Source: a virus. Taken from it: a DNA stretch of 45,813 nucleotides. Made by a program: the position numbers and the translations under genes. The first letter of the stretch is position 1. Each line of letters begins with the position of its first letter. Positions 33 to 18,452 of the stretch are shown one piece after another. Below the pieces are notes generated by a model. It had not been told where the DNA came from. It searched no databases and was given only the letters and a program-made list of their open reading frames with translations. Location of the stretch: positions 1 through 45,813 of the IMG/VR virus record IMGVR_UViG_3300020005_000010. The stretch is one strand, 5' to 3'.

Positions 33-71
33 TTGTATTTTATATATATATAATAATATATATAAATACAA
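33..71. repeat. AT-rich inverted repeat, possible unwinding element
   Basis: TTGTATTT at 33-40 pairs perfectly with AAATACAA at 64-71, and the intervening TA-repeat tract can continue the stem, giving an almost pure A/T hairpin of about 18 bp. It sits about 37 bp upstream of the left promoter. It could be a DNA-unwinding element of an origin or a terminator-like hairpin; the sequence alone cannot decide. Confidence 0.55.
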
Positions 72-107: not shown

Positions 108-136
108 TTGACAATCGGCAGGGAGTGTGGTATAAT
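108..136 (+). promoter_or_regulatory. Consensus sigma70 promoter for left arm
   Basis: TTGACA at 108-113 and TATAAT at 131-136 are separated by exactly 17 bp, and TGG lies directly before the minus-10 box (extended minus-10). Transcription should start near 143 and read rightward through the structured leader into the left-arm genes. A perfect match on both boxes with ideal spacing is rare by chance in 45 kb, so this is probably the strong early promoter used by host RNA polymerase. Confidence 0.88.
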
Positions 137-180
137 CCGTTTCGACGGTAAGGTGTTGATTTTCAACGGTTTACAGACCC

Positions 181-250
181 TTGCACGTTCCGACGTGTCA
201 CGACACAAAACGATACGCTCCGACACGTCTCGACCCGTTCCGACACGTTT
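181..250. repeat. 10-bp phased repeat array (iteron/operator-like)
   Basis: Seven consecutive 10-bp units can be read: ttgcacgttc, cgacgtgtca, cgacacaaaa, cgatacgctc, cgacacgtct, cgacccgttc, cgacacgttt. Six begin with CGA(C/T) in strict 10-bp register, with consensus near CGACACGTTC. The period equals one helical turn, so a protein binding each unit would line up on one DNA face. The array also contains inverted matches (GACGTGTC 193-200 with GACACGTC 222-229). It lies just downstream of the predicted transcription start. Confidence 0.7.
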
Positions 251-285
251 GTCCTCTTTAGGTGACACTTTTAATTAGCTGAATT

Positions 286-657
286 CAAGTATTGAATGAG
301 CAATTTAGATATGGTCAAACAAGTTTGATATGTTTAGATTATAATCTATTTCATATTAGGCCACTAAATTGCTCATTGAATACTTGGAGGTGGATTATGT
401 GAACTAATTGAAGCCGGTTCGACCGGCCAAAGCACATTCTTCCCAATTCAAATTGGCGCTCAATTAAATTTAGAGCAGACAGGAGAATACGTGCCATGTG
501 ATAAGGTAAACTCAAACTCATACAGACTCCGATAGTATGAGTGAGTATAATATAATTCGGATAAGCTGGTTACTCGGCTTTGGCCGTTTGCTAGATGCTA
601 ACCAGTGATTAAATGAGGAAACGGCCTGCATTTGATTGAATGACTCACTTAGTGAGT
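286..657 (+). ncRNA. Candidate large structured leader RNA
   Basis: Directly downstream of the strong left promoter this non-coding stretch is full of complementary segments: 286-307 with 365-386 (22 bp, one mismatch); 315-320 with 323-328; the palindrome 335-348; 413-418 with 422-427; 443-448 with 451-456; 516-523 with 535-542 (8 bp); 566-572 with 599-605 (7 bp) interleaved with 582-589 and 619-626 (8 bp), which forms a pseudoknot; and 643-649 with 651-657. No protein frame is evident. It could be a free-standing ncRNA of the large ornate type known in phages (GOLLD and ROOL are precedents), a regulatory leader, or origin DNA. I do not recognise a known family. Confidence 0.55.
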
Positions 658-700
658 AAGCGTAGTGTTCATCGATTGTTAGCATTAGTTAACACGAGAT

Positions 701-763
701 ATGGACAACGGCATTGGCATTACTGAGGAAGTAATCAAAGACATTTTGAAACGGCAAAGTTAA
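701..763 (+). CDS. Possible 20-residue leader peptide
   Basis: ATG at 701 opens a 20-codon frame ending in TAA at 761-763, immediately followed by the ATG of the next ORF. The product (MDNGIGITEEVIKDILKRQS) looks like a short helix. An in-frame stop at 686-688 rules out a longer version. No clear ribosome-binding site is seen. It may be a coupled leader peptide or chance. Confidence 0.25.
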   Translation: MDNGIGITEEVIKDILKRQS

Positions 764-2280: not shown

Positions 2281-3843
2281 ATGGCACTATCAAGTATTAT
2301 TAAGCAAACCTGCAAAGAGTGTGGTAAGATTGCAATAGAAAAGAATCGAATTAGTTTCGGTTCTAGCAAACTTATCACACTCGAATGCGGGCATGTAACC
2401 ACTGAAGAAGTATTAGCTTCTGCTGATTATAGCACTCTGCAATCTGTAGATGGTAAGAAATTGATGCCATTTCAGATTGATGGGGTTAAGTTCTCAGAGG
2501 AAGCTAATTGTAGAGTATTAATTGCTGATGAGCAGGGCTTAGGTAAGACTGCTGAAGCATTAGCATTACTTAAACTACACTTTGGTGAATTGACTCCCGC
2601 TGTAGTTGCAACTAAGGCAACTATCAAGACTCAGTTTATGAGAGAAATTTGGAACTGGATTCCCGGTTCTAAAGTTCAAGTCTTATACTCTGGGAAAGAG
2701 ATAGCTGTGCCGGGGTTTGATGTGTATGTAACTTCCTATGCAATGCTTGCTAAGACAGAAGTATGGAAGCACATTGAACCTAAGACCTTAATTCTAGATG
2801 AATGCCAGCAGATTACAAATCATCTTGCTGACAGATCAAAAGGTGCTCAGAAGATTGGTAAGAAATGTGAGCACATTATAGCATTAAGTGGCACACCAAT
2901 AAGAAATCATGCTGGTGAGTATTTCACGATTCTAAATCTCATCAGACCTAGAATGTTTCCTGAATATCAGAGATTCATAGACGAGCACTGTGATGCCTAT
3001 AATAATGGGTGGTCACAGAAGGTAGGTGGTCTAAAGAATCCTGAAAGATTCCATGAGTTAACCAAAGATTTTATTATCCGTAGAACACAAGCTGAAGTAT
3101 TACCTGATTTATTTGCACTTCAGCAACCACGTAAGTTCCATCATGTGGAACTAGATAGGAAGTTAAATAAAGCTTATGCTGAGGCATTGAAAGAATTAGA
3201 TGACCTCATGTATAACGATGAGATGAGCTATTCGGATAAGAATGTTAATAAGCTGGCCATTATGAATAAGATGCGCCAGATAACAGGAATATCCAAGACA
3301 TACGAAGCTAATGAGTATATTCAAGAGCATATTGAGAGCACTGGACGTAGAATAGCCGTCTTTGCTCATCACCATGCAGCCGTTAATTTGCTAGAACAGA
3401 ACATTAACAAATGGTTAGCTGAGAATGGCTATAATCCAGCCGTAATGGTAAGAGCTGGAGATGATAGTGCAGCCAAACTCAAACAGCTAGACAATGACAA
3501 AAGCTTTGTTATTCTCTGTTCTGGATTAGCTAGTGGTGAAGGAATGGATGGATTACAGCATCTCTGCTCTGACATGATTGTCTTAGAGAGATTTTGGAAT
3601 CCTGCAAGTGAGGAACAGATAGAGAAACGGCTCGTTAGAATGGGTCAGACTAAGCCAGTGAATTACATCTATATGATTGCAAGTGGAACCATAGATGAAT
3701 ACTTCACTGAGCTAGTAGAACAAAAGCGAGCAATCGTAGCAAGCACTCTAGATAATAAAGAGATTGCTTGGGAACAACAGAATCTAATGAGCGAGCTTGC
3801 TACACTGTTAGTAACAAGAGGCAAGAAAGCATGGAAACTGTAA
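2281..3843 (+). CDS. SNF2-family (SF2) DNA helicase/translocase
   Basis: The amino end has a C-x2-C knuckle (CKECG) and a later C-x-H (ECGH), a likely zinc ribbon. Then come the helicase motifs: Q-like LMPFQIDGVKF, Walker A with GLGKT at residues 86-90, motif Ia (VVATKATIKTQF), Walker B DEC at about 173-175, motif III ALSGTPIRN, and in the second RecA lobe CSGLASGEGMDGLQ, LERFWNPASEEQIEKRLVRMGQ (motifs V and VI) and SGTIDEYF. This is the SNF2 layout at 520 residues, the compact phage form. It probably remodels or unwinds phage DNA during replication or recombination. The last bases carry one copy of a 21-bp direct repeat. Confidence 0.93.
   Translation: MALSSIIKQTCKECGKIAIEKNRISFGSSKLITLECGHVTTEEVLASADYSTLQSVDGKKLMPFQIDGVKFSEEANCRVLIADEQGLGKTAEALALLKLHFGELTPAVVATKATIKTQFMREIWNWIPGSKVQVLYSGKEIAVPGFDVYVTSYAMLAKTEVWKHIEPKTLILDECQQITNHLADRSKGAQKIGKKCEHIIALSGTPIRNHAGEYFTILNLIRPRMFPEYQRFIDEHCDAYNNGWSQKVGGLKNPERFHELTKDFIIRRTQAEVLPDLFALQQPRKFHHVELDRKLNKAYAEALKELDDLMYNDEMSYSDKNVNKLAIMNKMRQITGISKTYEANEYIQEHIESTGRRIAVFAHHHAAVNLLEQNINKWLAENGYNPAVMVRAGDDSAAKLKQLDNDKSFVILCSGLASGEGMDGLQHLCSDMIVLERFWNPASEEQIEKRLVRMGQTKPVNYIYMIASGTIDEYFTELVEQKRAIVASTLDNKEIAWEQQNLMSELATLLVTRGKKAWKL
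3823..3843 (+). repeat. 21-bp direct repeat, copy 1
   Basis: This copy contains aagcatggaaactgtaa and spans the last codons and stop of the helicase gene as well as the start codon of the next gene. An identical 21-bp copy lies at 4081-4101, 258 bp away. Confidence 0.9.
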
Positions 3844-4082
3844 ATGATAATCCTAAAACAGCCTTAGGCAAGAGATTACCAAGAGAGCAAAGAAAATTTC
3901 ACAAGTATTACAATAGTGAAAGAAAGCATTGCATGACGCTCACTACTGAGCAACTTAATAAGAGATTAATTAAGATGGTACTTGAAGTATATCATGCAAA
4001 GTTTAGAAAAGCTGCTGTTCTCGACGAAATAGCTGTCAGAAATGGTAAAGAGCCTAAATACAAAACGAGAGTGCTTGGTTAA
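3831..4082 (+). CDS. Basic hypothetical protein in repeat-bounded unit (83 aa)
   Basis: I chose ATG 3831, preceded by AGAGG at 9 bp; the open frame extends upstream inside the helicase gene but without support. The product is basic (RLPREQRKFHKYY, KRLIKMVLEVYHAKFRKAA) and probably helical, with no recognised domain. Its start codon lies inside the first copy of a 21-bp perfect direct repeat (3823-3843) and the gene is followed by the second copy (4081-4101), so it looks inserted or duplicated into the helicase 3' end. Confidence 0.6.
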   Translation: METVNDNPKTALGKRLPREQRKFHKYYNSERKHCMTLTTEQLNKRLIKMVLEVYHAKFRKAAVLDEIAVRNGKEPKYKTRVLG

Positions 4083-4101
4083 GAAAGCATGGAAACTGTA
4101 A
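4081..4101 (+). repeat. 21-bp direct repeat, copy 2
   Basis: Identical to 3823-3843. It lies between the stop of the 83-residue gene and the next ATG at 4103 and includes a dead-end copy of the helicase terminal codons. It marks the right junction of the repeat-bounded 258-bp unit. Confidence 0.9.
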
Positions 4102-4102
4102 T

Positions 4103-4309
4103 ATGAATGAGAAATTTATTAATGTAGACTTCAAGAGATTAGAATGCTTTGTAGTTCTCAAGAATCTGTTAGATAGAGATGCTGATTGTCGATGTGGTAA
4201 CATTCAACTGGATGAGTTTGAGATAAAGGCAATCAAAGAGCTTATGAATATGGTAGATGTCATGCATATTCATTGTGTTAACAATGGATGCCATATGAAT
4301 GACAAGTAA
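4103..4309 (+). CDS. Hypothetical protein (68 aa), Cys/His-containing
   Basis: The product carries C-x-C (CRCG) near residue 29 and a carboxy-terminal H-x-H-C...C-H cluster (MHIHCVNNGCH), so it may bind a metal. The middle is helical (LDEFEIKAIKELMNMVDVM). The ATG follows the second 21-bp repeat. No family is recognised. Confidence 0.6.
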   Translation: MNEKFINVDFKRLECFVVLKNLLDRDADCRCGNIQLDEFEIKAIKELMNMVDVMHIHCVNNGCHMNDK

Positions 4310-4323
4310 TGGAGAGACATCTA

Positions 4324-4539
4324 ATGAATGATTTGCTAACAGTATCTAAAAAGCTACGTAAGATAGCAGAACTAATTGATGAGCTATTCATCGAGAAAAG
4401 AAAGGAGAATAGGAAAACAGCTAGTGAGATTACTCGTGGAGTTAAACCTCATTGGATGCAGACTTCAGCCGGTAGACGTAAGTTAAGTAAATCAATGAAA
4501 GCTGTGTGGGCTAAGAAAAGACTTAAAGGTGCTGCGTAA
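4324..4539 (+). CDS. Small basic, probably DNA-binding protein (71 aa)
   Basis: ATG 4324 has GGAG at about 9 bp upstream; an in-frame ATG at 4309 overlaps the previous stop. The amino half is an acidic/basic helix and the carboxy half (SAGRRKLSKSMKAVWAKKR) resembles the basic A-G-R-R-x-L-S...A-x-W-A-K-x-R tail found on histone-like and homing-endonuclease-associated DNA-binding segments. DNA binding is inferred. Confidence 0.6.
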   Translation: MNDLLTVSKKLRKIAELIDELFIEKRKENRKTASEITRGVKPHWMQTSAGRRKLSKSMKAVWAKKRLKGAA

Positions 4540-4763: not shown

Positions 4764-5333
4764 ATGCCTCAATTGAAAGCAGTAGAATTCGGATTTAACA
4801 AATATTGTGGACCATCAGTATTATCAATTTTAACTGGTAGGTCCACAGACGAGTGTGCTAGGGTAATCCAGTCTATTAATGGACAGTATGACATTCGTGG
4901 TGTATTACTTACTGATCTGCTCAGAGCTGCTGACAAGCTAGGCTTTGATCAAATTAATGTAAATGTCAATGATATGTCGTTATTTAGAGCATTGATTACT
5001 CTAGCACCAAAAGGTAATGCACAATACATAGTGACTGTTCCTAATCACTTTGTATGCGTGGAAGTCGCAGATAATAAGATATATTTCTGCGACAATCACA
5101 CTAAAGATCCTATTCCAGCCGCTAGTTCGGCTAGATTACAGATGTTAGTGATATCTGTACATAGGATTGTAAAGAGGAAGGATTTCGTAGAACCAGTCAA
5201 GCCAGTAAAGAAAGAAGAAGCTGAGTTTGAAGCGATAATGTACTACAGATGTAAATCATGTAACTATAGCTCACCAAATAAGGCTCACTATAACTGGTGT
5301 AAATTCAATGAATCTAATGTCAAAAGTAACTGA
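4764..5333 (+). CDS. C39-like papain-fold protein with zinc ribbon
   Basis: Residues 12-20 (NKYCGPSVL) give a C39-type active-site Cys15 at the start of a helix; VPNHFVCVEV gives the candidate catalytic His95, and FCDNHT gives Asp110. This order (Cys, His, Asp) is that of papain-like C39 peptidases. Residues about 162-180 form a CxxC...H...C ribbon (CKSC, HYNWC). C39 peptidases usually trim bacteriocin leaders; in a phage it may be a protease or an inactive binding fold acting on host proteins. The 3' end overlaps the next gene by 26 bp. Confidence 0.7.
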   Translation: MPQLKAVEFGFNKYCGPSVLSILTGRSTDECARVIQSINGQYDIRGVLLTDLLRAADKLGFDQINVNVNDMSLFRALITLAPKGNAQYIVTVPNHFVCVEVADNKIYFCDNHTKDPIPAASSARLQMLVISVHRIVKRKDFVEPVKPVKKEEAEFEAIMYYRCKSCNYSSPNKAHYNWCKFNESNVKSN

Positions 5334-9811: not shown

Positions 9812-12289
9812 ATGCCTAATTACGTCGGTGGAATAGGACCATTAGAACCTGATTTGATGGCTATTGGAGAAGCACCTGGTAAGACAGAGAACGAATCAGG
9901 TGTTCCATTTAATCCAGAAGCACCAGCCGGTTCTTTGGTAGACGATTGCTTTAGAAAAGCCGGAACTAGGCGTAGTCAAGTATATATCACAAATGTCTGC
10001 AAATACCAACCACCAAACAATAACTTAAAACAACTCAATCTCATTGGTGTCGATCTCAATGAACAAATCAAGAGTTTATGGGAAGAAGAAATAACACAGC
10101 GTAGACCTAAATGTATTCTGGCTATTGGTGACTTAGCATTAGAAGCAACCACGGGACTTACAGGCATACTGAAATACCGTGGTTCCATTCTAACGGCTAA
10201 GGATGGCATTACTAAGGTAGTACCAACAATTCATCCAGCCGCGCTATTTAATAGAAATGAAAATGGTCAGCAAGTAGGTGGACTTGAATTCACTTACTTG
10301 AAATTGATTGAGCATGATTTTGCTCGTGCTGTAGAAGAATCTAAGTCAAGAATATTAAGATTACCTGATCGTGATTTAGAAGTAGCACACTCATCATTAG
10401 ATTTATATAGATTCTTTGGCAAATATGAGAAGCTCGACAAAGCGACAACGGATATTGAATCTATTAATTGCGTTCCTGTCTGTATTGGTTTTGCTTTCAA
10501 CAGACATCATGCCATATCCGTTCCGCTTCTATCTTCTATTGGTAGGCATAAGCTTACTGATATGGGTGAACGTGAGTTAGATGAAGTTTGGAGGCTAATT
10601 GATGTTCAATTACGCAGACTCAAACTTATTGGCCAGAACATCAAATACGACGAATTCAAACTTAATCTTATTCGTTTTCTCCTCCCAAACGTGTACAGCG
10701 ACACTCTTATCAAAACAAGAGTTATCTTCCCAGAATTGCCAGATAAAAGACTCCATGTCCAAGCTTCTCTCTGGACTAGAGAGCCTTATTATAAAGAGGA
10801 AGGTAAAGAATTCAAGCTTGGTAAACAACCGATTGAACAACTATTACGATACAACGGGAAAGACTGTTGCGTTACGCATGAAATTGATGAGGAACAAGAG
10901 ACAGACTTACATGATTTAGCTGATAAATTTAAGGTTCCTCTTGTAGAGTATTATTACAACTACATGATGAAGAAGCATAAGTTCTATTTGAAAATGGAGA
11001 ACAATGGCTTCTTAGTAGACTTAGATAGAAAGAAAGAATTAGCTAAAAAGTATACAGGTATGCAGCAGGTGGTTCACGATAGGATCACCAAGAATGTAGG
11101 ATATGAAGTAAACGTAAACTCGTATCCTCAGATGTGGAATCTTTTATATAAAGACATGAAATTCAAGATTAGAACTCGTAATCCTACATCTGAAGATACC
11201 ATTGTAGCGTTATTGGGGAGCCATGCCAAAACGCCAGAAAAGAAAGCAATACTCTCTGACTTACTCGAAGAACGTAGAATCAGAACTCAAAAATCACGTA
11301 ATATCAATTTCAGCCCGGATTATGATGGAAGATGCAAAGCGTCTTTCAACATCTCAGCGACAGAAACTTGCAGAAGTTCTACTGGAATACTTAAAAAGCC
11401 AATTAGGCCGAAGAAAATTGGGCTTGCGTTCCATACGATTAGTAAACATGGGCGACTCGCGAAAGACATACGCTCTATGTTTATTCCGGATAAAGGAACC
11501 GTATTCCTCAGTGCAGATAGCTCTCAGGCTGAAGCAAGAGTAGTAGCTGTATTAGGTGAAGATTGGGAATTATTAGAAGCATTCGACAAAGTAGATATAC
11601 ATAGGAGAACAGCCGGACTTATATTTGGGTATACATCTAAACTTATCCTTACCACAGATAAAATACCAGTAGTTGACATTATTGAAAAAGATGGACCGGA
11701 GAGATTCTGTGGTAAAAAGACGCGCCATGCAGGTAATTACGATATGGGCAAGGGTGAGTTTATGGTCAACTTTAATACTGATGCTCAAAAGTTTGATATT
11801 AGTATGTCGATTAGTGAGTGGCGTGCTGGACAGATGTTGGAACTTTTCCACTCCGCGTCACCTAAGATCAAAGGAAAGTTTCATCAAGATATCATTGATT
11901 GTCTGGAGTCGAGCAGAACAATCATCGATCCCTTTGGAGGTGTTCGTATCTTTAATGGAAGAATGGATAAACAATTATACAAAGAAGGCTACGCCAATAT
12001 ACCACAACGCACAGTAGCTCACATTGTACAAGGTGCAGCATTAAAGATTGACTATGAACTAGATGGCGATAATGCATATATGTGGCTCTCTGAGAATCAC
12101 GACAGCTTACTTATGCAGGTGCCAGAGAATAATTGGGAACCATACGCTAGATTGATGAAGAAGCATTTTGAGGTTCCTGTAGATTTTAGCACATACTGTA
12201 GTTTGAAGCGTGACTATAAACTAACTATTCCATCTGAGTTGGAAATCTCTGATACTAATTATGCTGAAATGAGAAAGGTGAAATTATGA
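9812..12289 (+). CDS. Uracil-DNA glycosylase/DNA polymerase A fusion
   Basis: The 825 residues hold three modules. Residues 1-180 match a family 4-like uracil-DNA glycosylase: IGEAPGKTENESGVPF, YITNVCKYQPP and HPAAL. Next comes a DnaQ-like 3'-5' exonuclease with D-x-E at 214-216, QNIKYDEFK, and YNGKD for the third motif. From about 350 comes a family A polymerase with motif A ADSSQAEAR (Asp569), a motif B region GKKTRHAGNYDMG, and motif C NHDSLLMQVP (His763-Asp764). The N-terminal CxxC of Fe-S family 4 enzymes is not seen. It is the replicative polymerase; the glycosylase-like domain may make it sense or remove uracil, as proposed for the SPO1-type polymerase. No 5' nuclease domain is present. 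Confidence 0.93.
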   Translation: MPNYVGGIGPLEPDLMAIGEAPGKTENESGVPFNPEAPAGSLVDDCFRKAGTRRSQVYITNVCKYQPPNNNLKQLNLIGVDLNEQIKSLWEEEITQRRPKCILAIGDLALEATTGLTGILKYRGSILTAKDGITKVVPTIHPAALFNRNENGQQVGGLEFTYLKLIEHDFARAVEESKSRILRLPDRDLEVAHSSLDLYRFFGKYEKLDKATTDIESINCVPVCIGFAFNRHHAISVPLLSSIGRHKLTDMGERELDEVWRLIDVQLRRLKLIGQNIKYDEFKLNLIRFLLPNVYSDTLIKTRVIFPELPDKRLHVQASLWTREPYYKEEGKEFKLGKQPIEQLLRYNGKDCCVTHEIDEEQETDLHDLADKFKVPLVEYYYNYMMKKHKFYLKMENNGFLVDLDRKKELAKKYTGMQQVVHDRITKNVGYEVNVNSYPQMWNLLYKDMKFKIRTRNPTSEDTIVALLGSHAKTPEKKAILSDLLEERRIRTQKSRNINFSPDYDGRCKASFNISATETCRSSTGILKKPIRPKKIGLAFHTISKHGRLAKDIRSMFIPDKGTVFLSADSSQAEARVVAVLGEDWELLEAFDKVDIHRRTAGLIFGYTSKLILTTDKIPVVDIIEKDGPERFCGKKTRHAGNYDMGKGEFMVNFNTDAQKFDISMSISEWRAGQMLELFHSASPKIKGKFHQDIIDCLESSRTIIDPFGGVRIFNGRMDKQLYKEGYANIPQRTVAHIVQGAALKIDYELDGDNAYMWLSENHDSLLMQVPENNWEPYARLMKKHFEVPVDFSTYCSLKRDYKLTIPSELEISDTNYAEMRKVKL

Positions 12290-18369: not shown

Positions 18370-18452
18370 GCCGGGTTGGCGGAATGGCAGACGCATTGGA
18401 CTTAAAATCCAAGGTAGGAAACTACGTGAGGGTTCGACTCCCTCACCCGGCA
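18370..18452 (+). tRNA. tRNA-Leu(UAA)
   Basis: All arms fold: acceptor GCCGGGT with ACCCGGC (7 perfect pairs), D stem GCG/CGC, anticodon stem TTGGA/TCCAA with loop CTTAAAA (anticodon TAA, 18403-18405), a long class II variable arm (GTAG-gaaa-CTAC), and T arm GAGGG-TTCGACT-CCCTC. The discriminator is A and the CCA is not encoded. It reads UUA, a leucine codon used often in this AT-rich phage, so it probably supplements the host supply. No integrase is present, so it is not evidently an attachment site. Confidence 0.97.

Follow-up and report, generated by a model that had tools for sequence, protein, structure and literature searches.

The leader of T4 gene 32 messages carries a pseudoknot that acts in translational autoregulation, and a 2010 review considered this type possibly the sole viral case of its kind (PMC3014915). 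Pistol ribozymes near phage genes (PMC4604425) and ornate phage RNAs (PMC12286853) are also already known. In a limited literature search, we did not find a pseudoknot leader, a pistol, and an ornate phage RNA in combination. We analyzed the region at 137-700 in a 45.8-kb stretch of viral DNA (IMG/VR record IMGVR_UViG_3300020005_000010, 45,813 nt, classed as linear), referred to as a whole as the window. Comparison with related contigs gives good support for regarding this putative leader as a real structured RNA outside the Rfam families.

The locus resembles four described systems. As in T4 gene 32 (PMC3014915), the putative message leader contains an H-type pseudoknot 5' of a translation start; unlike T4, the window has two consecutive pseudoknots (PK1 and PK2), another downstream gene, and no known protein ligand, and relatives have a hairpin that covers the ribosome site. 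The leader pseudoknots share with pistol ribozymes (RF02679; PMC4604425) a hairpin loop that pairs downstream, and related phages carry true pistols, the one in L163 lying upstream within the same RNA. However, PK1 and PK2 of the window lack the P2 stem and the conserved AUAAAUA and GCGU blocks. GOLLD and ROOL (PMC12286853) are pseudoknotted phage RNAs that are likewise long and elaborate and whose function is likewise unclear, but the window RNA is shorter, has no Rfam match or adjoining tRNA cluster, and varies between close relatives. Finally, tmRNA is also a chain of H-type pseudoknots, whereas the window RNA has neither a tRNA-like domain nor a tag reading frame.

Control region and leader structure in the window

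The window derives from a clade of uncultivated tailed phages whose terminase is distantly related to that of many named phages (<60% identity). It encodes an SNF2-type helicase, and one open reading frame (9812-12289) fuses a uracil-DNA-glycosylase-like domain to the N terminus of a family A DNA polymerase. An earlier note on this DNA had described a perfect sigma-70 promoter followed by about 560 nt with no protein. The promoter holds up (Table 1), and its position is conserved among relatives. No conserved protein was found in 143-700, where the only reading frames are unconserved mechanical ones; a 20-codon frame begins at 701. We detected no terminator-like site in positions 1-1000 and hence none after the promoter or the RNA element.

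The A+T palindrome also lies upstream of the promoter in L005, L006, L010, L018, and L021. CGACAC-type repeats occur in L005, L006, and L010 both downstream of the promoter and, inverted, beyond the palindrome. In L005 and L006, the homologous control region is internal to the contig and two-sided, with the palindrome, outward promoters, and repeats on both sides; the window therefore lacks the left half and begins inside the control region. The region (window 36-66 and 184-267; L006 4289-4724; L005 3877-4290) also carries a CAACGACTTACAG box and a TGTCC-CTTTTGG-GACA motif.

This two-sided region looks like a bidirectional origin or an operator array, and the RNA could then be a primer precursor or replication regulator at such an origin. 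The gene arms of the window diverge from the contig ends, the GC skew reverses both near 19 kb and at the ends, and the inverted repeats flank the palindrome in three relatives. However, the RNA is missing from L006, L010, and L136 although these have the promoter and repeats, it is also found oriented for transcription toward the palindrome, and the origin is itself a putative one. Because the control region is kept without the RNA, we regard an origin-linked role as quite improbable. The earlier note had offered a regulatory leader or an origin RNA; the leader fits best, and an obligatory part of the origin does not fit these three relatives.

Folded whole, 137-700 had a z score of -5.7 and beat 100 of 100 shuffles. 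The note's 22-bp pairing (286-307/365-386) is present and extends to a 23-nt inverted repeat that is 96% complementary. Folded alone, this hairpin had a z score of -7.3 (0 of 200 shuffles as good), and its core, UU-G-AAUGAG/CUCAUU-G-A with the G-G mismatch, is that of the terminal hairpins of L045 and L026 (see below). Right behind it (386-402) lie a GGAGG (386-390) and a start-stop ATG-TGA (397-402). An 8-bp stem (516-523/535-542) and two interleaved stems (566-572/599-605 with 582-589/619-626) had also been noted. All are exact, and an H-type pseudoknot finder recovered them independently, with the first interleaved stem, S1, seen as 565-572/599-606. The 8-bp stem proved to be part of PK1, a second pseudoknot that the note had missed.

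Table 1. Coordinates of features in the window and of pistol ribozymes in related contigs (named in parentheses)
Feature	Position	Strand	Basis or remark
A+T-rich palindrome of divergent control region	36-66	.	Inverted repeat 39-49/56-66
Sigma-70 promoter, TTGACA-17-TATAAT with extended TG	108-136	+	12/12 match
Conserved box CAACGGTTTACAG (relatives: CAACGACTTACAG)	164-176	+	Read in leaders of most relatives
Tandem CGACAC-type repeats, about 10-11 nt, operator or iteron-like	184-249	+	
Long hairpin of terminal-hairpin type, 23-bp arms 286-308/364-386	286-386	+	One G-G mismatch
Predicted three-way junction	432-494	+	Minimum-energy fold only, without comparative support
Pseudoknot PK1, 516-523/535-542 with 528-532/557-561	516-561	+	H-type pseudoknot finder
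Pseudoknot PK2, S1 565-572/599-606, S2 582-589/619-626	565-626	+	Finder and homologues L032 (=L013), L038, L045, L163
Conserved 3' motif TGCATTTGATTGAATGACTC, 5' arm of terminal hairpin	627-646	+	3' arm absent here
20-codon open reading frame	701-763	+	Sequence; stop abuts ATG of 50-aa frame at 764
Pistol ribozyme (L142)	4036-4103		
Pistol ribozyme (L163)	4286-4342		
Pistol ribozyme (L130)	2855-2917		
Pistol ribozyme (L129)	3683-3747		
Pistol ribozyme (L140)	5232-5291		

Without pseudoknots, 396-665 folded with a z score of -3.0 (reached by 2 of 200 shuffles). The score of the pseudoknot chain at 396-660 was reached by 1 of 1,000 dinucleotide shuffles. When 686 equal tiles of the window were scored, 10 reached it too, the chain's own tile being one of them. 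Within the single sequence, the chain is thus strong but not unique. Since other tiles score equally, one sequence is no proof, and comparison with relatives is needed. Positions 620-700 folded like shuffled sequence (z = -0.5). A perfect 10-bp complement (424-433/577-586) would compete with S2; about 0.3 such pairings are expected by chance (a rough estimate), and the complement could be a switch or, possibly, chance.

Homologues, covariation, and distribution

Using the window proteins, we collected about 60 related contigs and searched for the element at 577-650 with a nucleotide profile, followed by a covariance model. The element was present in four other phages, L032 (the same contig as L013), L038, L045, and L163, at E values of 1e-13 or better, these four also serving as the model's own seeds. 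Homology had first been detected by blastn for L013, L038, and L045 and by a motif descriptor for L163. The covariance model (R1) gave no further full copies over the 60 sources, and the match in L026 was weak.

The S2 stem reads GGCCGTTT/AAACGGCC in the window, GGCCGTTC/GAACGGCC in L032 and L038, GGCTGTT/AACAGCC in L045, and GAGGGT/ACCCTC in L163. Four of its eight pairs show both-sided compensatory changes, a count of few events, as the core element is found in only five homologues related by descent. Overall, 92.5% of S2 cells were paired (78.9% after shuffling), sliding the partner abolished pairing, and complementarity over the five sequences had a Fisher P value of about 3e-9. The S1 sequence differs in each phage and is complementary in four (joint P of about 0.002); L038 gives no support. 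PK1 directly precedes PK2 in the window, L038, L045, and L163, with unrelated stem sequences. Pseudoknot chains in the related RNAs of L129, L130, L140, L142, and L163 beat 100 of 100 shuffles; the chain statistics were not significant for L005, L018, L026, and L149. The last three have a long hairpin leader only.

A search of the Rfam covariance models, as the earlier note had suggested, found no family matching the leader. The only Rfam match in the window was a tRNA, with no pistol, GOLLD, ROOL, or tmRNA; at E values up to 5, positions 1-900 yielded nothing relevant, and ARAGORN found no tmRNA in the window. The window's sole tRNA (tRNA-Leu, 18370-18452) lies 18 kb from the leader. The note had proposed a new or divergent member of the large phage RNAs such as GOLLD and ROOL. 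A new structured RNA is borne out, but membership in GOLLD or ROOL is not, given the lack of an Rfam match and the distant tRNA. Phage and plasmid collections contained no DNA match to the window element, and a motif scan of the genome contig collection found no copies. The A1-type protein was absent from named phages and from the same contig collection. The pattern TGCATTTGAWTGARTG matched 82 stretches of viral contigs, the matches being real only within this clade. A promoter-plus-repeat filter was dropped as too strict.

The RNA forms the right leader in the window, L032, L038, and L045 and lies left of the control region, after a gene of about 190 aa, in L163, L129, and L140. Judged from these contigs, it is a modular, optional element on either side of the control region.

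Terminal hairpin and pistol ribozymes

Immediately 3' of S2 lies a 20-bp hairpin that has a G·G mismatch, with TGCATYTGA in its 5' arm and TGAGRTGCA in its 3' arm. This terminal hairpin is carried by the four relatives with the core element and by a fifth phage that keeps the hairpin only. In these five phages, 100% of cells are paired and 4 pairs are compensated, and in relatives the hairpin folds with z scores of -5 to -8. In L032 and L026, the 3' arm overlaps GAGGTGCA just before an ATG, likely the ribosome site of the next gene. The layout resembles the T4 gene 32 type only in part, with a pseudoknot and hairpin in L032 and the hairpin only in L026. The window has no arm over the ribosome site.

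The window contains partial direct repeats (291-308/635-652 and 307-318/697-708), the first overlapping the motif at 627-646. We infer that its leader is a partial tandem duplication, in which a module reduced to the hairpin precedes a pseudoknot module with a broken hairpin. Because this copy is rearranged, with no 3' arm downstream and no pistol, its translation control may have been lost. The same repeats, the lost 3' arm and pistol, and the start-stop ATG-TGA behind the first hairpin would also suit a decayed relic, a once-functional module now neutral in the window phage. However, unselected sequence would not be expected to retain the 23-bp hairpin and both PK2 stems intact, as the window does, and we consider decay improbable.

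Canonical pistol ribozymes above the Rfam cutoff were found in seven related records (the five in Table 1, L178, and L172), most of them in the same control region as the leader RNA. In L163, one noncoding stretch holds the pistol and, downstream of it, PK1, PK2, and the terminal hairpin. The window record gave 0 matches to RF02679 at E values up to 10. PK2 was rejected as a pistol: it did not match the covariance model and has neither the P2 stem nor the conserved blocks.

Two other domains were seen in relatives. A symmetric domain, GGTCAAAGGATATGAGCC..TTGACTCAAAGAATATGACC, follows the pistol in L163 (4377-4424), L142 (=L016), and L129 (=L020), and its 17-nt core was found in 4 viral contigs. 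Another conserved, RNA-like domain with GAGTAGGTCCATTGAATGGGCGTAAAGGACTCCGC occurs in L142 (4274-4524), L149, and L183 (5177-5238), so that even a distant phage has it; an Rfam search with the L149 copy gave no match.

Proposed role

The reading we favor, with confidence just short of even, is that the early region carries a structured RNA, modular and optional, that affects message stability and translation, mainly in cis. Both its function and the transcription of 143-700 are what we infer from sequence. In the window and most carriers, the RNA is placed as the leader of a rightward operon. In the window, transcription from the promoter at 108-136 would make this stretch the 5' untranslated leader of the rightward early operon. 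Its modules would run from the long hairpin through the junction and the two consecutive H-type pseudoknots to the start of a second hairpin, and in intact relatives the last hairpin could cover the ribosome site of the next gene. Such an RNA may shield the 5' part of the early message against nucleases and may lower or gate translation of the first gene or genes until a ribosome or an RNA-binding protein opens the structure. By analogy, the leader would work like that of T4 gene 32. In pistol-bearing relatives, the RNA would acquire a defined 5'-OH end through self-cleavage.

Control of the next gene cannot be the only role of the RNA, because it has no gene behind it in L163, and a separate ribosome site serves the next gene in L045 and L130. 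The main rival to the role in cis is a stand-alone, trans-acting noncoding RNA, an optional cargo near the control region (a decoy, nuclease-resistant, or counter-defense RNA) that is pistol-processed in some phages and merely embedded in the window leader. Its occurrence on either side of the control region, its absence from many relatives, the missing downstream gene in L163, and a pistol-headed RNA that in L178 lies on the opposite strand and directly follows a promoter of its own are consistent with such an RNA. However, no terminator follows the element in the window, and in several relatives the RNA directly adjoins a start codon, covering the ribosome site. We consider a stand-alone RNA possible, if rather doubtful. 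We hold it unlikely that these RNAs form a new class of H-type pseudoknot chains closed by a G·G-mismatch hairpin, partly pistol-headed, that phages would carry next to their early control region as optional cargo and that would act in trans, for instance to resist a host nuclease or a defense system or to titrate it.

DNA phages have few known pseudoknot-based leaders. A covarying pseudoknot family that is partly pistol-headed would offer a natural setting for testing the role of pistol ribozymes in phages.
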